Below, piece after piece: positions 1,292 to 57,913 of a stretch of DNA of 64,000 bases (positions are counted from its first letter, which is position 1; each line of letters starts with the position of its first letter). The stretch comes from Planoprotostelium fungivorum (lineage: Eukaryota; Evosea; Variosea; Cavosteliida; Cavosteliaceae), in NCBI GenBank assembly GCA_003024175.1, contig MDYQ01000061.1:103544-167543 (forward strand), given 5' to 3'. A program made the position numbers and the translations under genes. The notes beneath the pieces were generated by a model. The model was not told the DNA's origin, searched no databases, and saw only the letters and a program-made list of their open reading frames with translations.

Positions 1292-3180
1292 ATGAAGCAG
1301 GTGGCTCTTCTGCTCGTTCTTCTCTTGGCGGCTTCGGCTCACATTTCTCTCCATCATCCTTCCGTCTATGATCCCGTGAGCCATTTTGTCATTTCGGATC
1401 GATGATCGCGAGATGGCTGATAATAGACAGGAACCCTACAACGATAACTACAAGGACAGCAACAAAGCGTCTGACCCTCTGGACGGTTTAACATTCGACC
1501 AATGGTGGTGGCACGGATATCTGAACAACCCTCCCATCGCGAGACCCGACAATGTGATCTCATGCGTGCACATCGCCATCCTCTAAACATGTGCAGGTGT
1601 TCGAACTCCCCGCCAACGGTCAAGCGAAGGCATGGATCAGCACCAGCAGATCTTACACCCCTTACGGCTGGCCAGAGAGGATGTTCCCCAACCCAGAAGC
1701 CATCGTCGAGCCCTTCGCTGACAGTCCTTACGTCAGTGAGTCGCCGCCATAATGATGCACCTCTGTACTGACCACGTGCCAGAGAACAACAACATCCACA
1801 CGACCAACAGAAGCGACCTTGCCGGTTGCGTTCTGGGTATCTCATACAAGTCAGACAGATTCCAGATCAAGCCTGAAGACTTTGGTATGTTTGCATCTTG
1901 GTACTCGTCCCGTTCTTAAGTACGAGCGCAGTCATCTTCTCTGTTGCCCACGACTGCCCTGCCAGATGGCTGCAGACGTTCCAAGTGCCCAACTTGCCAG
2001 CGTGTCCGAACGGAATGTGTCAGTGTGCATGGTTCTGGGTACACAAGTCATACGGAGGAACTGATCAGATCGTAAGTCATCGTCGCTCTCCGTCATGCAT
2101 CCGTCATCATCGCCTTCTTGATCAACCTCATCCTCGTAAAGAAAAGGTGCTGACAGTCTTTAGTACATGACGCCATTCCAATGCAAGGTCACTGGCGCTT
2201 CTGCTAGCGCCTCGCCTGTCGATGTGGCTCACGCCAAGCCCCCCCGAAAGTGCTGGGATCCAGCCAACTGCAGACTTGGACCTCGCAACCCCATGTACTG
2301 GATGTAAGTGCCACCATGCTTACATTCCCACACGATCGTCACATCCTTCACCAAACGGCCATCATCATCAACATCATCTGATGATGATCACAGGAACCAG
2401 GACAGAAACAACATGCCCGAAGTCATGCACTTCGCTCCTTCTTACTCCACCCTCTACGGTTTCCCCGAAGGTGCTCAGAAGGACATCTTCGTTGCAACGA
2501 ACCCCGTCAACTACGTGTCCAGACCCTTCCCTGCCGAGGCCAAGTGTAACGGCAAGCCCTCTCGTCTCGTCAGCTCTGGCAACGGAACTCTGGTTCTGAA
2601 GCAGAACGACATCTTAGTGTCGCCCAACTGCAAGTACAACTTGTGGTTCGGTGGCGATGGTGCCCTCTACCTCGGTACACCAGGTGAGATCCAGTCTATC
2701 ATGACGATGGGAACTGACTGTACGTAGATCGCAACAGCATCTGGGACACTAACTTCTACTTCCGTACTAACGGCAACCCCGGCGGCAGTGGATGGACCGC
2801 CAGCATTACAAAGGCTGGAGACTTTATCATCCAGAACTCTGCCGGACAGAACCGCTTTACCAGTCCCATGACAAGCAACGTTGGAGTTGGACCTTACCGC
2901 TTGGAGTTGACCAACGCTGGTCAGCTGGTCTTATTCGACTCACTTGGCCACGACTTGTGGGAGTCTAGCTGGAAGTGAGTTCCTCTCATCTTCTTCACCG
3001 CTCTTGCATCATCATCTTGATCATCACATTTCATCACAATCTCGATGATGTTGCGTTGTGAAACTCACGATGAGCAGTGATCAGCGCGAGCAGAGCTGGG
3101 TAGGACCTTTCAACCCCGATCCACCCATCTGGAAGACTTTCGCTCGCAACAGCACCAGAGTGCTGATCAAGGCTCAATGA
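1292..3180 (+). CDS. Secreted AA14-like LPMO fused to bulb-type lectin domain (copy 1, short form)
   Basis: Predicted copper oxygenase that cleaves polysaccharides outside the cell. Nine exons (1292-1375, 1431-1553, 1597-1735, 1783-1884, 1932-2071, 2164-2303, 2394-2683, 2728-2974, 3078-3180) give 455 residues. The signal peptide MKQVALLLVLLLAASA is followed directly by HISLHHPSVYD, so cleavage would expose His1, the hallmark of LPMOs. Later come FDQWWWHGYLNNPP, a conserved His in NNIHTTNRSD (mature about 105), CPNGMCQCAWFWV and QIYMTPFQCKVTG with Tyr about 181. His1/His105/Tyr181 matches the AA14 histidine brace (His1, His99, Tyr176) as I recall it. Residues about 280-435 form a bulb-type (mannose-binding) lectin domain with repeated GDGALYLGT, AGDFIIQNSAG and AGQLVLFDS strands. 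Unlike copies 2 and 3 it stops right after that domain and lacks PAN repeats. The family assignment is from memory; activity and substrate are inferred. Confidence 0.8.
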
Positions 3181-3201
3181 GCGATCACGGAGAGTCTGGA
3201 C

Positions 3202-3207
3202 AATAAA
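3202..3207 (+). terminator. Polyadenylation signal AATAAA of LPMO gene 1
   Basis: AATAAA lies 22 bases after the stop codon. Confidence 0.6.
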
Positions 3208-3210
3208 ATG

Positions 3211-3776
3211 TCTCGTGTTTCATGCGTGGCTTGACTCAAATGAGAGGATATGGATGGGTGTTGATCAATTCGACGAGACGAATTTATGGATCTGACGATT
3301 GGATTGTTCCTCTCTTCGATAGGGTCAAAACTCGACTTCTAAAGATATTCTGCCGGGTGCGATCGTTCTCGTCGGTGTATCTAAGCGCTACTGAAGACGA
3401 CGAGACCCTGAATCCGTCACCTTAGGTAGGTGGGTTACTCCTGCCTCCTAAACCTCACCTGAACCTGCAGTCAGACACATCAGTGCACCGTCAGAAGTAT
3501 CACCGATGCACGTTCCTCTCTGCATCCGATAGAACGTACCCCAAACAGAAGTGAAATGGCTCGGTTCATTCAGAACCATCCACGCGTTCCTCCCCCAGAA
3601 TCGACTTCTGTACTCCTCCTTCTCTTTCTCTATAGAGATGTATACCCAAACTGTCACCTCGTCGCGTCCAAATGAGACATCATTCGCCCAATGAAACGAA
3701 CCAGCTCTGCCGCTTGACATAAACTGAGGCCTTCTTGTCATACTGCGGATTAGGGTGAAGAGACCTCGAGGTGAGG
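3211..3776. other. Intergenic region between LPMO copies 1 and 2
   Basis: About 570 bases. Short frames at 3222-3425 (plus) and 3448-3741 (minus) show no domain, no splice-supported extension and no resemblance to neighbours. It probably holds the promoter of copy 2. Confidence 0.4.
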
Positions 3777-3793
3777 TTTATTCTTTTCCAACC
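3777..3793 (+). promoter_or_regulatory. Conserved leader motif of LPMO gene 2
   Basis: Exact copy of the 17-base TTTATTCTTTTCCAACC block seen before copies 1 and 3, here four bases before the ATG. Confidence 0.5.
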
Positions 3794-3797
3794 GAAG

Positions 3798-6276
3798 ATG
3801 AAGCAGGTAGCCCTTCTGCTCGTTCTTCTCTTGGCAGCTTCGGCTCACATTTCTCTCCATCATCCTTCCGTCTATGATCCCGTGAGTCATTTTGTCATAT
3901 CGTCACTCTCAATCTCCGTATGATTCGGATGAGGCTGACGGATCTCAGAATACGTATGACGATAACCACAGAGACGCAAACAAAGCGTCTGACCCTCTGG
4001 ACGGTTTAACATTCGACCAATGGTGGTGGCATGGATATCTGAACAACCCTCCCATCGCGAGACCCGACAATGTGATTTCATATCACCATCACACATCATC
4101 TTCTAAACATGCGCAGGTGTTCGAGCTCCCCGCTAACGGTAAAGTGAAGGCGTGGATCGCAAATTCGAGAACGTTTACGCCTTACGGCTGGCCGGACAGG
4201 ATGTTTAAGAATCCAGAGGACGTTATCGAGCCTTTCACAACCAGTCAATACGTCCGTGAGTGGACACATCACATGACGACGGATGGATTCTGAATGACGA
4301 TGTGCAGAGTGGAACAACATCCACACGAACAACAGAAGCGACCTTGCCGGTTGCGTTCTGGGTATCTCATACAAGTCAGACAGATTCCAGATCAAGCCTG
4401 AAGACTTTGGTGAGTCTGCAGCTTATCTATCGCCTTTTCCTAAAGTACGAGCAGTCATCTTCTCTGTGGCCCACGACTGCCCTGCGAGATGGCTGCAGAC
4501 GTTCCAAGTGCCCAACTTGCCAGCGTGTCCGAACGGAATGTGTCAGTGTGCATGGTTCTGGGTGCACAAGTCATACGGAGGAACTGATCAGATCGTGAGT
4601 CTTCATCTGCCATCATCCCTCTGCCATCATGCATCATCATCACGAACTAGTTGGCCTTCGTAAAAAGAGGGATGCTGACAGTGTATAGTACATGACGCCA
4701 TTCCAATGCAAGGTCACTGGCGCTTCTGCTAGCGCCTCGCCTGTCGATGTGGCTCACGCCAAGCCTCCTCGAAAGTGCTGGGACCCTGCCAACTGCAGAC
4801 TTGGACCTCGCAACCCCATGTACTGGATGTGAGTTCCATCTATCTCCATCACATCACGCTCATCACATCATGCCGCAAACATCATCAAGAGCATCATTTG
4901 ACCGACATCCATAGGAACAAGGAGAGGAACAATATGCACGAGCCCGACCACTTCGCTCCTTCCTACTCCACCCTCTACGGTTTCCCCGAAGGTGCTCAGC
5001 AAGACATCTTTGTTGCAACCAACCCCGTCAACTACGTGTCCAGACCCTTCCCTGCCGAAGCCAAGTGCGGCACGAAGCCCTCTCGTCTCGTCAGCTCTGG
5101 CAACGGAACACTGACCCTGGGACAGAACGACATCTTAGTGTCGCCCAACTGCAAGTACAACCTGTGGTTCGGTGGTGATGGTGCCCTCTACCTCGGTACA
5201 CCAGGTGAGAAATTCTTCATCTGATAGTTGTACATGATGGGAAGAAGGACTCATGGATATAGATCGCAACAGCATCTGGGACATCAACTTTTACTGGCGT
5301 ACAAATAACAACCCGGGCGGCAGTGGATGGATTGCCAGCATCACCAGCGCTGGAGACTTTATCATTCAGAACTCTGCAGGACAGAGAAGATTCACCAGTC
5401 CCATGACGAACAACGTTGGAGTTGGACCTTACCGCTTGGAGTTGACCAACGCCGGACAAATCATCTTGTTCGACTCACTTGGCCACGACTTGTGGGAGTC
5501 TAGCTGGAAGTGAGTTCCCCTCCACCGTCACCATCATCATGATGTCTGATGATGTGATGATGAGAGACCTAAAGACGAGCAGTGATCAACGAGAGCAGAA
5601 CTGGGTCGGACCATTCAACCCCGATCCACCCATCTGGAAGACCTTCTCTCGCAACAACACCAACAACGGTGGAAACAACGGTGGTAACGGTGGAGACAAC
5701 AGTGACTACGGACCCATCACTGCCAACACCGATCGCTGGGGATCTGACATCGGCAACGCCAAGGCTGACAGCGCAAAGACATGTCAGGCCATGTGCTACA
5801 AGTGAGGACGGAGGACATCACCCTCGTGATGCTGTCGATGATGACGGTGAGGCTGACGAGATGCAACAGGAACGCAGCTTGTGTGTCCTTCAGCTGGAAC
5901 TCTTGCGGTGATGGCACTTGCTACATGAAGGGCAGCGCACCCAGCACAACCGCAAACAACTGCTTCGCCAGTGGAACTATCAACGGTCGTACTGGTAACA
6001 ACAACAACAACGGTGGCAGCTTCGGTCCCATTTTGACTGGAGACAGACCCGGTAGTGATTTGGAGTTGGTGAACGCCGCCAACATCCAAGACTGTCAGCA
6101 GAAGTGCCTCGCCAGACAGTGAGAGAGATAGATGATGAAGATGGCTGATGTAGAGCAGGGGCTGTGGCTCGTTCGCATGGGACTCTTGTGGCAATACTCT
6201 GTGCTGGCTCAAGTCTGGACAGCCCGGCTTAGATACGTCGGTTGGATGCAGACAGAGCGGAGTCGTCAACAAGTGA
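3798..6276 (+). CDS. Secreted AA14-like LPMO + bulb-type lectin + two PAN/apple repeats (copy 2)
   Basis: Long form of the tandem family: 11 exons, 616 residues (3798-3881, 3949-4071, 4117-4255, 4308-4409, 4455-4594, 4689-4828, 4915-5204, 5263-5509, 5583-5801, 5870-6118, 6159-6276). The first eight exons have exactly the lengths of copy 1 (84, 123, 139, 102, 140, 140, 290, 247). Signal peptide, predicted mature His1, the WNNIH histidine and the IYMTPFQCKVTG tyrosine are all kept, so the copper site looks intact. After the lectin domain a linker of Asn and Gly leads to two Cys-rich PAN/apple-like repeats: CQAMCYKNAACVSFSWNSCG and CQQKCLARQGCGSFAWDSCG. PAN modules bind carbohydrate or protein. 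The 45-base intron at 4072-4116 is a multiple of three with no stop, so its retention would stay in frame. Confidence 0.8.
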
Positions 6277-6316
6277 TGAGGTCTCTCATCGGGTGTTCTT
6301 GTGTTTGTAGAACGAG

Positions 6317-6322
6317 AATAAA
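6317..6322 (+). terminator. Polyadenylation signal AATAAA of LPMO gene 2
   Basis: AATAAA lies 41 bases after the stop codon. Confidence 0.55.
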
Positions 6323-6703
6323 TGTTAAAATCAAGAAATGCGAAAGATGATGGATGGGACGGTGGAGATGATGAATGGAAGGTCTTGATGTGATAGAAGA
6401 TTGACCATTTCTAAGCGGATGAGACTTATGAAATCAGGTGAGCAGCCGTCTGTAGCAATCTCGAGAATCTCCTAATACAAGTCTCGATCGATGATGGATG
6501 AAGATTCAAGTTCAGACTGCGAAATCTCGATCCTCTATATTTTCACTGCGACCGATTTCTCCTCCTCCTCTTCTGGTCCGTGCCCGACACCCTTCTCGTG
6601 CTGAAGCGACACCATTCGCTTCACGAGGAGAATTGACACAAAGCCTTCACCCTCTTGACACAAACTGTAGCCGCCTGTCAGACCACAGAGGTCAGCACGT
6701 GTG
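6323..6703. other. Intergenic region between LPMO copies 2 and 3
   Basis: About 380 bases without a supportable gene; the open frame starting at 6498 simply runs into the first exon of copy 3 in another frame. Probable promoter of copy 3. Confidence 0.4.
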
Positions 6704-6720
6704 TTTATTCTTTTCCAACC
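6704..6720 (+). promoter_or_regulatory. Conserved leader motif of LPMO gene 3
   Basis: Third exact copy of TTTATTCTTTTCCAACC, five bases before the ATG of copy 3. It is kept although the DNA immediately upstream is unlike that of the other copies. Confidence 0.5.
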
Positions 6721-6725
6721 CGAAG

Positions 6726-9097
6726 ATGAAGCAGGTGGCTCTTCTGCTCGTTCTTCTCTTGGCGGCTTCGGCTCACATTTCTCTCCATCATCCTTCCGTC
6801 TATGATCCCGTGAGCCGCTTCCGATGGATGATTGAGAGGTGGCTGATGGAAGACAGGAACCCTATAACGATAACTACAAGGACAGCAACAAGGCTTCTGA
6901 CCCTCTGGATGCCTTGCCGTTCGACAAGTGGTGGTGGCACGGACATCTGAATAACCCTCCCATCGCGAGACCCGACAATGTGATTTCACATCACTGTCTC
7001 ATCATCCTCTAAACGTTTGCAGGTGTTCGAGCTCCCCGCCAACGGTCAAGTTAAGGCGTGGATCACCACTAGCAGATCTTTCACTCCCTACGGCTGGCCA
7101 GAGAGAATGTTCCCCAACCCAGAAGCCATCGTCGAGCCCTTCGCTGACAGTCCTTACGTCAGTGAGTCGACACCACATTGATGTGCACCTGCTGATCACG
7201 TGCAGAGTGGAACAACATCCACACGAACAACAGAAGCGATGTCGCTGGCTGCGTTCTGGGTATCTCATACAAGTCAGACAGATTCCAGATCAAGCCTGAA
7301 GACTTTGGTATGTTTGCATCTTGTTCCTCATCTCGTTCTAAAGTACGAGCGCAGTCATCTTCTCTGTGGCCCACGACTGCCCTGCGAGATGGCTGCAGAC
7401 GTTCCAAGTGCCCAACTTGCCAGCGTGTCCGAACGGAATGTGTCAGTGTGCATGGTTCTGGGTGCACAAGTCATACGGAGGAACTGATCAGATCGTGAGT
7501 CTTCATCTGCCATCATCCCTCTGCCATCATGCATCATCATCACGAACTAGTTGGCCTTCGTAAAAAGAGGGATGCTGACAGTGTATAGTACATGACGCCA
7601 TTCCAATGCAAGGTCACTGGCGCTTCTGCTAGCGCCTCGCCTGTCGATGTGGCTCACGCCAAGCCCCCCCGAAAGTGCTTTGATCCCGCTAACTGCAGAC
7701 TTGGACCTCGTAACCCCATGTACTGGATGTGAGTGTATCTTCCCCTTCATCATGTTCATCATCTGATGATGATCGCAGGAACCAGGACAGAAACAACATG
7801 CCCGAAGTCATGCACTTCGCTCCCACGTACTCCACCCTCTACGGCTTCCCCGAAGGTGCTCAGCAAGACATCTTTGTTGCAACGAACCCCGTCAACTACG
7901 TGTCCAGACCCTTCCCTGCCGAAGCCAAGTGCGGCACGAAGCCCTCTCGTCTCGTCAGCTCTGGCAACGGAACGCGAACTCTCGGACAGAACGACATCTT
8001 AGTGTCGCCCAACTGCAAGTACAACCTGTGGTTCGGTGGCGATGGAGCCCTGTACCTCGGTACACCAGGTGACAAACACTCAATCATTAGACGAGAAGGA
8101 CTTACCGTTTGTAGATCGCAACAGCATCTGGGACACCAACTTCTACTGGCGTACTAACGGCAACCCCGGCGGCAGTGGATGGACTGCCAGCATCACGAGC
8201 GCTGGAGACTTTATCATCCAGAACTCTGCCGGACAGAACCGCTTTACCAGTCCCATGACAAGCAACGTTGGAGTTGGACCTTACCGCTTGGAGTTGACCA
8301 ACAACGGACAACTTGTCTTATTCGACTCACTCGGCCACGACTTGTGGGAGTCTAGCTGGAAGTGAGTGATCTTCACCGTCACGATCATCATCCTGTCCAT
8401 CACGATCTGCGATGATGCTGATGAGATGATCAGCGATGATCGTGAGCAGAAGTGGGTCACACCCTTCAACCCCGACCCAGCCATCTGGAAGACCTTCTCT
8501 CGCAACAACACCAACAACGGTGGAAACAACGGTGGTAACGGTGGAGACAACAGTGACTACGGACCCATCACTGCCAACACCGATCGCTGGGGATCTGACA
8601 TCGGCAACGCCAAGGCTGACAGCGCAAAGACATGTCAGGCCATGTGCTACAAGTGAGGAAGCTGACGATGACGACGGTGATGCTGACGAGATGCAAAGGA
8701 ACGCAGCTTGTGTGTCTTTCAGCTGGAACTCTTGCGGTGACGGCACTTGCTACATGAAGGGTAGCGCACCCAGCACAACCGCAAACAACTGCTTCGCTAG
8801 TGGAACCATCAACGGCCGTACTGGTAACAGCAACGGCAGCTTCGGCCCCATTCAGACCGGAGACAGACCCGGTGGTGACTTGGAACAGACCAACGCCGCC
8901 AGCATCCAAGACTGTCAGCAGAAGTGCCTCGCCAAACAGTGAGAAGAGAGAGATAGTGAAGACAGCTGACGTAGAGCAGGGGTTGTGGCTCGTTCGCTTG
9001 GGACTCTTGCGGCAACAGCATGTGCTGGTTGAAGTCTGGACAGCCCAGTGTAGACACAACCGTCGGATGCAGACAGAACGGAGTCGTCAACAAGTGA
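6726..9097 (+). CDS. Secreted AA14-like LPMO + bulb-type lectin + two PAN/apple repeats (copy 3)
   Basis: Same architecture as copy 2: 11 exons, 613 residues (6726-6809, 6857-6979, 7023-7161, 7206-7307, 7355-7494, 7589-7728, 7779-8068, 8115-8361, 8434-8652, 8699-8938, 8980-9097). Exon 10 is nine bases shorter than in copy 2 through loss of three linker Asn/Gly codons. Mature His1, WNNIH and IYMTPFQC are kept. In the LPMO domain it has PFDKWWWHGHL where the others have FDQWWWHGYL. The DNA of 7351-7665, including a whole intron, is identical to copy 2, pointing to recent gene conversion or duplication. The C-terminus ends in GVVNK like copy 2. Likely secreted with its sisters for glycan attack. 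Confidence 0.8.
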
Positions 9098-9137: not shown

Positions 9138-9210
9138 TGTTGCGATCATATCTGTTGATTCATATTCATAAACACGACGAATATTACACTTTATGTGAAG
9201 ACAAGAGTGT

Positions 9211-10523
9211 TTAGAGCTTCCATCTCTGACAGTCGGAACCGTTATCCTTTTGGAAGGTGACCGCGTTGTTGTTGCATCCGTCGAGGACGAGACCGTTGGC
9301 GACGCTGGAGATCTTGTAGAAGCCGGCGGGTCCTTCAACGAAAGTCCACTGCTGGTTCTTCGAAGCGTTTCTCTCCTGAAGATCTCATCAGATCGTGATT
9401 GGATGATGATGGATGGATGATATGTGATGATGATGGAGAGCTCACTCCGAACAAGATGGGCCTGTTTCCTGGGTTCTTTCTTCCGTAAGCATCCAGACCG
9501 TTGTGGCTGACGGTGTCCACGATGAGATAGTTGTCGTAGCCGTGGATCAGAATCTGGAATTGTCTTCCAGAACCGCCGAGAGTGAGGGTGCTGTTGTCTG
9601 ATCCGATGCTGATGGGCTTCTGGTTGCTCTTCAGAGTGATGGTTCTCTGGCGAATGACGTTAGAATGGGTCAGATGGAGATGGAATGAAGGTCTAACCTT
9701 GGTGACGGCGTTGAATTGGACCTTGTTGGAGTACGGGAGGATTTTGGAAGCGTAGGTTCTGGCGTTCTTCCAGCATGAGAAGGTGTTATTGTTGAGAGTG
9801 GCCTCGCTAGCTCCAGACAGAGAGAGGTAAGACCACAGGACGGCAGTCTGAGCCCAAGCTTCGGCCTGTTTCGAGTCACATCTTGATGTTATCATCGCTT
9901 GAAAATCACCTTGCTCGATCTCGCATAGGGATCAGGCTGGCAGGGATCGTCGGTGATGGCGGAGATCCATTCCTTCGTGCCTCCGATGCCGTTGGTAAAA
10001 TCGAACGAGTGACCGCTCTCGTGAATGAAGACTTCAGGTCCATATCGTCCGAGATAGACACCAGAGTTACCCATAGTGTAAGCTCCGTTGCCAGTGGGTT
10101 TGGCGCTCAACTTGTTGACGGCCGAACGGATACGCAGAGGTACCTGATGCATTCAATCACTGTGCATTCGTGAGGAGAACTCACGTAAGCGAAGAGAGAG
10201 GCCATCTCCTTAGCGTCTGTGACGTATCCGGCGCACAGACAGACGGGAAGCCAGACACCGTCCTCATATCCGACCTCATAGACGGAGTCCACCTTCAATC
10301 CATCGTTGGCTTTCGAGTTGCAAGCGTCGTATCCAGTGCATTTGGAAGTCCAATCGTCACGACGAGTGACGGTGAACTTTGGGGTTGATTTTGTTACAGA
10401 TTTGATCGAGATGTGAGGAGAGAGACCATTGCCCCAGATGACCTTCTTCTTCGACAAATCTACGTCGGCTGACGCAGCTAATGCGGCGAGACCGATAAAG
10501 AGGAGGACCTTTGTGGTTAGCAT
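9211..10523 (-). CDS. Secreted HExxH metallopeptidase-like protein (Con-13-like) with ricin-type lectin tail
   Basis: Five exons (10523-10185, 10143-9910, 9865-9698, 9646-9446, 9375-9211) give 368 residues. The start at MLTTKVLLFIGLAALAASA was chosen over an upstream in-frame ATG because it gives a clean signal peptide. Residues 154-158 are HESGH within EVFIHESGHSFDF, a zinc-binding HExxH motif; with the surrounding pattern it resembles the fungal conidiation-specific protein 13 family as I remember it. The last third carries beta-trefoil features: ITLKSNQKPISIGSDN, then KNQQWTF and CQRWKL, the QxW-type ends of a ricin B-like lectin. It sits tail to tail with the LPMO array and shares its secreted, lectin-tailed character. 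Proteolysis is inferred; the third zinc ligand was not identified. Confidence 0.7.
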
Positions 10524-56186: not shown

Positions 56187-57913
56187 ATGGGACTGTCCAC
56201 AACTCAAGACGCAGAGCAGCAGAGAGCCTTCGAAGAGCTGAAGAACTCCATCGGTCCAAGGTGTGTTGGCTTCATGCCAGACGATGACGGACTCATTTGG
56301 TGCTAGGTCGACCATCATCTTACCGGAAGACTCGAATTACAATGACTCGAAGAGAATTTGGAATGCCATGTTCGACAACAAGAACCCATCCATCATCTTG
56401 CAAGCCACCGGCGTCGCTGACGTGCAGGTCGCCATTCACTACGCTCAGAGAGGTGACCTTCTTCAGAAGACGTGATGTTCGTCATGATTGACTCTCGCAG
56501 TCGGTGTCGTCGTGACACCCAGAGGAGGCGGTCATTCTTGGGCTGGATTCTCCACAGTTGAAGGAGGAGTGGTCATCGATTTCTGCAAGATGAGAAGTGA
56601 GCATTCGATGCGTATGATGTCTTCTCACACTTGATGTCAGGTGTCCACGTCGATCCCATCTTGCAGACTGTGACGGTTGAGCCCGGGGTTTTGTTGGGGG
56701 AATTGGATCACGAGACGCAGGCTTTCGGACTGGCGGTACCAGTTGGTGTGATCTCTCACACGGGAGTCTTTGGACTTGTTCTGGGAGGAGGTGTCGGATG
56801 GCTCTGTAGAAAGTATGGTGGCTCCGTAGATAACATCATCTCGGCCAACATTGTGGGTTGCATTCCCATTAGAGGATGGTCACTGACAGACGACAGGTAT
56901 TAGCGGATGGACGATTCGTCAAGGCTTCGAAAACTGAAAACGCGGACCTCTTCTGGGCCATCAGAGGCGCCGCACAGAATTTTGGCATCGTCACATCTCT
57001 CACCATCCAGGCTCATCCAGTCGGTCTGGCTTATCGCGGCAGTTACGTAAGTACCGAGCTTCATCGCTCTCCATCTCACCTCATCCAGTTCTATCCGATG
57101 GATCAGATAGAGGAAGTCCTCCACGCCATCAACGAATTCCAGAAGACTGCCCCTCGCGAATACAATTGCGAGGTCTACAACCGTGGACGCATCGATGGCA
57201 GTTCAGAGATGTTCCTCAAGATCTGTTACAGTTTCTATCTGCCACAAGAAGAGGCGGAGAAAGCTGCCGAGCCATTGAAAGAGATCGGTCGACCCATAGA
57301 GCATTCTTGGAAATGGATCACACACGTCGAGGTGACACCGATCACATCATCCAAAACGCATCATCTGATGTTCCTTCAGAACCAGAAGATCTTTGATATG
57401 GAGAGCCCTCACCACAGACGATACTACGCCAAGTCAGGTTCCATCAATTTCGACGATATGAACTCTCACTTCGTCGATGCCTTCAAATGGGGTGTAGCCA
57501 ACCTCACATCACCGTACTGCATGGTCGAGATGATCGGTCTGGGCGGAGCCATGAAAGACAGCTCCGCCGAGCACGCCGCTTTCTTTCCCTTGAGATCACA
57601 AGACTGGCTGGTCAACGTCGTCGCATCATGGAACAACGATGTGCCAGCAGAAGAAGACCAGAAGCACATCGAGTGGTGCAGAGAGAGCTTTCAAAGACTG
57701 CACACGAAGAACCCTGGATACATCAACATGTTCGCCGATGCATGCCGTGACACGATGCAAGAGAGATTGTCCAGGGCTTTCGGTAATAACTTGAATCAAT
57801 TGAGGCTGGTCAAGAGGAGATACGATCCGTACAATTTCTTCAGGCACAACGTGAATGTGCTGCCGGCTACGGATGAGGATCTCGAGACGGAGTCCACCTT
57901 TTCAAACGAGTAA
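56187..57913 (+). CDS. FAD-linked oxidase (berberine bridge enzyme-like)
   Basis: Flavin oxidase of the BBE/FAD_binding_4 family, about 460 residues, several short introns near the start and one long last exon (from 56898 region). Seen: STIILPEDSNYNDSKRIWN, PSIILQATGVADVQVAIHYA, VVVTPRGGGHSWAGFST (the His for 8-alpha-histidyl FAD), PGVLLGELDHETQAFGLAVP, TGVFGLVLGGGVGWLCRKYG, ADLFWAIRGAAQNFGIVTS and the BBE tail RYDPYNFFRHNVNV. The second FAD-binding Cys of plant BBEs is not at the expected place (ISHTGVFG), so the cofactor is probably attached only by His. No signal peptide at MGLSTTQDAEQQ. Substrate unknown. Confidence 0.88.

Follow-up and report, generated by a model that had tools for sequence, protein, structure and literature searches.

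A predicted AA14 copper monooxygenase joined to a bulb-lectin-like module in a three-gene array of the amoeba Planoprotostelium fungivorum

Lytic polysaccharide monooxygenases (LPMOs) hold copper by the N-terminal histidine (His1) and a second histidine, with an axial tyrosine, and oxidize glycosidic bonds using a reductant and O2 or H2O2. For fungal enzymes of family AA14, plant polymers (xylan and cellulose) have been reported as substrates (PMC10885436), CBM1 is absent according to the accessible sections of PMC8615602 and PMC10885436, and a survey of 27,060 LPMO sequences assigned the AA14 tails to disordered regions or anchors (PMC8615602). In this study, a stretch of 64,000 nucleotides from P. 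fungivorum (contig MDYQ01000061.1, positions 103,544 to 167,543 of the forward strand; referred to as the window) was analyzed, in which three neighboring genes (referred to as g1, g2, and g3) encode an AA14 domain followed by a lectin-like module. An earlier interpretation of the same letters without database searches (the sequence-only reading) had remarked that LPMOs do not normally carry B-lectins, and this fits the accessible sections of the above papers and of an LPMO review in which lectins appear in the reference list only (PMC10154629). In the open-licence literature, we found no paper joining an AA14 LPMO with amoebae or diatoms, or any LPMO with a bulb-type lectin; such a paper may be in print elsewhere.

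AA14 domain and gene array

The Pfam profile of AA14 (PF22810) matched g1, g2, and g3 with E-values of 1.1e-72, 1.1e-74, and 3.7e-73, respectively, and the scores (245.8, 252.4, and 247.4 bits) exceeded the curated cut-off of 27, as expected for members of the family. The g3 protein matched PDB 5no7 (E-value of 7.3e-45), and the predicted structure of g1 contained an LPMO fold with PcAA14B as the closest structure. When aligned to 5no7, His1, the second histidine, and the axial tyrosine were conserved in all three proteins. The N-termini all read MKQVALLLVLLLAASA directly before HISLHH, with alanine at -3 and -1; therefore, cleavage at this site, which was judged by the rule of thumb of AXA before H and not by a predictor, would leave His1 at the N-terminus. 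By every feature tested, in sequence and model alike, g1-g3 are predicted to be secreted copper monooxygenases of CAZy family AA14. The AA14-like LPMO of the sequence-only reading was thus recovered by the profile search, the 5no7 match, and the predicted fold; that reading would have failed with a fold other than that of an LPMO or with a signal peptide cut away from the histidine, and we found an LPMO fold and, by the same rule of thumb, a histidine at the likely mature N-terminus.

The three genes lay head to tail on the same strand (Table 1), and the boundaries proposed earlier for three adjacent genes coincided exactly with the first ATG and the last stop. All 28 introns in the spliced models (8, 10, and 10 in g1, g2, and g3, respectively) were of the GT..AG type, with lengths of 40-103 nt. 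The products were 90-94% identical in pairs, and a codon comparison of the array genes indicated purifying selection across 616 aligned codons in both domains, which, together with the E-values, excluded a match of the domains by chance. The best database match of g1 was PROFUN_05872 (P0001) of P. fungivorum, with 100% identity over the whole of g1, and confirmed the suspected amoeba-like genome; the g1 model corresponds to residues 104-554 of this protein. PROFUN_05872 starts upstream with a different first exon, by which the first residues of g1 (1292-1375) are replaced and the signal peptide and His1 are hidden. Exon 5 and intron 5 were identical between g2 and g3 (234/234), whereas the remaining introns were 70-91% identical, and a recent gene conversion within the array therefore appears to have occurred.

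The paired PAN/apple repeats expected in two of the three genes were detected in g2 (PAN_1, 2.3e-12; PAN_4, 2.2e-11; 47.0 and 44.0 bits) and g3 (8.2e-13 and 4.3e-12; 48.4 and 46.3 bits), above the cut-offs of 21.4 and 27. Pfam found none in g1, which ends ahead of that region.

Table 1. Features of the array by position in the window (ranges of domains, modules, and repeats include introns).
Feature	Positions	Strand	Basis
g1, AA14-lectin gene of 9 exons; product of 455 aa with signal peptide, AA14 domain, and B-lectin-like module, lacking PAN	1292..3180	+	spliced model, Pfam
g2, AA14-lectin-PAN-PAN gene; 11 exons, 616 aa	3798..6276	+	spliced model, Pfam
g3, AA14-lectin-PAN-PAN gene; 11 exons, 613 aa	6726..9097	+	spliced model, Pfam, PDB 5no7
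g1 AA14 LPMO domain, from mature His1	1340..2505	+	Pfam, profile, predicted fold
g2 AA14 LPMO domain	3846..5026	+	Pfam, profile
g3 AA14 LPMO domain	6774..7890	+	Pfam, profile, 5no7
Codon of mature His1 of the putative copper brace (g1 His17)	g1 1340..1342; g2 3846-3848; g3 6774-6776	+	5no7 alignment, conservation
Codon of second brace His (g1 residue 121)	g1 1797..1799; g2 4322-4324; g3 7220-7222	+	5no7 alignment, conservation
Codon of axial Tyr (g1 residue 197)	g1 2164..2166; g2 4689-4691; g3 7589-7591	+	5no7 alignment, conservation
g1 B-lectin-like module (residues 285-446)	2518..3150	+	predicted fold, own profile, independent profile
g2 B-lectin-like module	5039..5655	+	own profile, independent profile
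g3 B-lectin-like module	7903..8506	+	own profile, independent profile
g2 two PAN/apple repeats	5710..6276	+	Pfam
g3 two PAN/apple repeats	8561..9097	+	Pfam
Gene-conversion tract, g2 exon 5 and intron 5	4455..4688	+	234/234 identical to g3 7355-7588

Lectin-like module and its distribution

A separate beta-prism II fold (bulb-lectin type), which had been anticipated, was predicted for the g1 module, with mannose-binding lectins as the best structural matches, and g3 matched the garlic lectin 4h3o (E-value of 1.3e-3). The Pfam B_lectin profile (PF01453) gave E-values of 0.015 (16.2 bits) in g1 and 0.029 (15.3 bits) in g3, and no match was listed in g2 at E<=1. At sites 1-3 of the QxDxNxVxY motif, the five key positions in g1-g3 were GDAYG, TADIQ, and T(A/N)Q(V/I)F, such that each sugar site kept at most one of the five motif residues in each protein; therefore, the label of a mannose-lectin and the aim at mannan, both put forward in the sequence-only reading, were unsupported. 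By its predicted structure, this part resembles a bulb lectin, yet by its sequence it fails two tests that define the family, the Pfam cut-off and the mannose motif. None of the 19 planoprotostelid-type proteins had a complete site (5/5), and one of them, P0016 of P. fungivorum, retained 4/5 at site 1. Among the 47 Physarum-type rows (chosen by script), site 1 had all five residues in 6 and 4/5 in 26, site 2 had all five in 11 and 4/5 in 19, and site 3 never exceeded 1/5.

The genome of P. fungivorum (36.86 Mb in 471 contigs) gave 52 exon-level AA14 matches on 14 contigs. These corresponded to 23 loci, a lower bound counted in the stretches fetched around the matches: three on C452, four each on C415 and C427, two on C216, and one each on C90, C207, C262, C30, C61, C62, C134, C203, C362, and C445. 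The lectin-like module was present at 15 of them; it was not found at C427 (four loci), C203, C362, C207, or the second C216 gene, by an exon-wise detection that can miss modules. The B_lectin profile had no match in this genome; as it likewise had none in control genomes and exons split the domain, this negative carries no weight. PAN-like repeats, read by eye in three frames, followed AA14 domains lacking the lectin in the first gene of C427, C203, and C207, and AA14, lectin, and PAN are therefore shuffled. The AA14 genes at C30:143201-143467 and C61:80801-81067, the latter near a contig end, were 96.1% identical over 2099 bases and 90.9% over 603, which ruled out an assembly duplicate and left paralogues or diverged alleles (in the case of alleles, the loci number 22). 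In P0147, of the C30/C61 type, tryptophan replaces the axial tyrosine. A simple count of hydrophobic residues revealed a C-terminal stretch resembling a glycosylphosphatidylinositol (GPI) or membrane anchor in the AA14-lectin proteins P0010, P0011, P0013, P0015, P0016, and P0147. PROFUN_05125 (P0121, 837 aa) apparently fuses the two AA14 genes of C216.

Beyond this genome, a set of 173 AA14-profile proteins was surveyed (170 from two database searches and the three window models). Our own profile detected the module in 125 of them, many being environmental sequences, and in none of the 30 named fungal proteins, several of which have tails too short to hold it. Since this profile had been partly built from proteins it then scored, an independent profile was prepared from 14 Physarum-type modules: it matched g1, g2, and g3 (7.7e-23, 4.1e-15, and 4.6e-16, respectively) and, weakly, the diatom records P0030 (1.8e-4) and P0176 (1.5e-4), missed the diatom record P0028, and matched none of the fungal tails of more than 60 residues (0/20). 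In profile-profile comparisons, the planoprotostelid-type module was related to the Physarum-type (8.2e-24), diatom-type (2e-18), and P0139-type (3e-25) modules, the Physarum-type was related to the diatom-type (4.8e-8), and nothing was found with fungal tails. The named carriers were P. fungivorum, EukProt Phypoly_transcript_09488 (P0161; "Phypoly" presumably stands for Physarum polycephalum), and the diatoms Thalassiosira exigua, Stephanodiscus triporus, and Proboscia alata. P0161, a fragment left out of the tree below, was closest to the "MSIYVPSMWGSEP" environmental proteins, i.e. the Physarum-type (83% identity to P0136 and 34% to g1). The predicted structure of the diatom P0030 was poor (mean predicted local distance difference test score of 58.2) and matched LPMOs only, and the evidence for the diatom module is therefore the profile comparison. 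In P0046 and P0175, which are diatom-like and share 68 and 65% identity with P0030, respectively, the first module was followed by another B-lectin. Its motifs were canonical (two complete ones in P0046; recognized by eye in P0175), and its Pfam scores were below the cut-off in both proteins. Pattern-limited searches for a viral origin (40 matches in IMG/VR) and for prokaryotic relatives (54 matches in GTDB contigs) yielded no confirmed candidate. The view of the pairing as a system of this tandem array was accordingly too narrow, the module being found at most of the AA14 loci of this genome, in a Physarum transcript, in diatoms, and in many environmental sequences.

A tree of 46 rows was inferred by IQ-TREE (LG+C20; root not inferred), after the 148 usable AA14 domains had been reduced at a threshold of 70% identity. 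The window genes and P0002 formed a group (100/100) within a clade (100/99) that comprised 23 planoprotostelid-, P0139-, and diatom-type rows; six Physarum-type rows (100/99) and twelve PcAA14-like rows (100/98) formed further clades, and rows from Pezizales, Umbelopsis, and a rotifer, all lacking the module, grouped at 81/53. Lectin-bearing AA14 thus fell into two clades in the unconstrained tree, and forcing all 29 lectin-group rows (including two module-less diatom-type fragments, P0034 and P0107) into one clade cost 5.1 log units and was not rejected (p-AU of 0.084), so that both a single gain with later losses and two separate gains are compatible with the data. The pairing of AA14 with the lectin-like module is probably ancient among protists and did not first arise in this array. 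The module-less AA14 of the bdelloid rotifer Didymodactylos carnosus (P0023) grouped with Umbelopsis and an unnamed sequence (96/95), and a transfer from fungi is possible.

Possible function and alternatives

We propose with moderate confidence that g1-g3, each an AA14 domain with a beta-prism module and, in two genes, two PAN repeats, most likely loosen the walls of fungal prey. P. fungivorum has so far accepted only fungi as food and pierces the walls of hyphae with protrusions (PMC11237637), and an attack on prey walls is plausible from this diet. The signal peptide would be cut to expose His1, and copper would be bound by the brace; given a reductant and O2 or H2O2, the enzyme may then oxidize a wall polysaccharide. 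The lectin-like module, without canonical mannose binding, may offer a surface for docking or scaffolding, with another glycan or the wall as the partner, and the PAN repeats may add further contacts with protein or sugar; in view of the fungal diet and wall piercing, prey walls would be loosened either extracellularly or inside the phagosome. The array is a candidate oxidative tool by which a fungivorous amoeba might cross fungal walls.

Several points weigh against this proposal. The same architecture occurs in diatoms, which do not feed on fungi, and in Physarum, and fungivory therefore cannot be the general purpose of the AA14-lectin pairing. To our knowledge, fungal walls contain neither xylan nor cellulose, the reported AA14 substrates. 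The B_lectin scores (15-16 bits) were below the curated cut-off of 32.4 for family membership, and no carbohydrate-active enzyme was recognized beside the array among only 8 adjacent reading frames scanned. Furthermore, the substrates of AA14 are disputed even in fungi (PMC10885436).

A possible role, although clearly less probable, is remodeling of the cellulose or glycoprotein coat of the amoeba itself when stalks, spores, or cysts are formed; a comparable role has been put forward for AA15 in the cuticle of arthropods. Protosteloid stalks contain cellulose, the architecture is found in lineages that do not eat fungi (diatoms and the Physarum transcript), and the paralogues P0010 and P0016 end in an anchor-like hydrophobic tail; AA14 activity has also been reported on cellulose as well as xylan (PMC10885436). 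On the other hand, g1-g3 lack such a tail, 23 loci are many for a single house-keeping task, and feeding by wall piercing is documented (PMC11237637).

In the sequence-only reading, the lectin was thought to hold mannan of yeast and hyphal surfaces, aiming the LPMO at mannan-coated prey. Although a true bulb-lectin fold was predicted with mannose-binding lectins as the best matches, and Physarum-type relatives (sites 1 and 2) and the paralogue P0016 retain much of the motif, this is unlikely because the motif is lost from g1-g3, no planoprotostelid-type row has a complete site, and Physarum and diatoms are not yeast specialists. We similarly doubt that g1-g3 are histidine-brace copper proteins that, rather than cleaving polysaccharides, manage copper, generate H2O2, or inflict redox damage on prey, for example. 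The X325/CBI-type LPMO-like proteins are a precedent for such a function. Although a reinvestigation of PcAA14A detected only oxidase and peroxidase activity on the claimed substrate (cited in PMC10885436), the brace and axial tyrosine are fully retained here, and a glycan-binding-type module accompanies 15 of the 23 loci. A role like that of fungal AA14, in ordinary decay of plant litter where the amoeba lives, on bark or leaves, agrees with the reported plant-polymer substrates (PMC10885436) and the deciduous-tree habitat (PMC11237637), and is very improbable.

Returning to the family as a whole, it is conceivable, although not probable, that AA14 began as lectin-coupled LPMOs of protists targeting glycoprotein- or mannose-rich walls and coats, not wood xylan. 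In this view, myxomycete-type proteins would still hold mannose, some diatom-type proteins would have gained another mannose lectin of the canonical type, and in the fungivorous amoeba the family would have expanded and its lectin would have been adapted to a different ligand; the fungal enzymes from which AA14 took its "xylan" name would be those without the module. Since the substrate of AA14 is disputed, the ligand of the module may reveal the substrate class.

Two other features of the window were observed. A secreted protein adjoining the array (about 9200-10520, - strand) has a zincin-like HESGH motif and no Pfam match at E<=0.01. A fragment of a BBE-type flavin adenine dinucleotide (FAD) oxidase (56876-57913, + strand; PF08031, 2.9e-9) is located 48 kb from the array, and a link is speculative; oxidases of this class are able to produce H2O2, an LPMO co-substrate.

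Comparison with described systems

Among described LPMOs, those of families AA9, AA10, and AA15 with CBM1, CBM5, CBM20, glycoside hydrolase (GH), or WSC share with the array the principle of an LPMO and a binding module in one chain, and differ from it in both the LPMO family and the module. From lectins of the GNA type (PF01453; the Marasmius oreades lectin 4TKC and Gastrodia 1XD5), the array modules differ in their Pfam scores of 15-16 bits against a cut-off of 32.4 and in the loss of the three mannose sites. PAN/apple domains of coagulation factor XI and apicomplexan micronemal proteins resemble the PAN_1 and PAN_4 repeats of g2 and g3, which exceed the cut-offs; in this genome, however, they are joined to an LPMO, also at AA14 loci without the lectin module. 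The LPMOs of fungi that belong to AA14, namely PcAA14A/B from Pycnoporus coccineus (PDB 5NO7) and TrAA14A, are further close systems, with tails described as short, disordered, or anchors (PMC8615602, PMC10885436). The AA14 set of P. fungivorum, with at least 23 loci, is well above the 1-4 genes of wood-decay fungi (PMC10885436). A module of recognizable type, missing from the fungal AA14 seen and common to amoebae and, more remotely, diatoms, offers a direct probe of what AA14 enzymes oxidize, and the pairing with a lectin beyond fungi offers a new handle on the purpose of AA14, which has hitherto been studied mainly in fungi.

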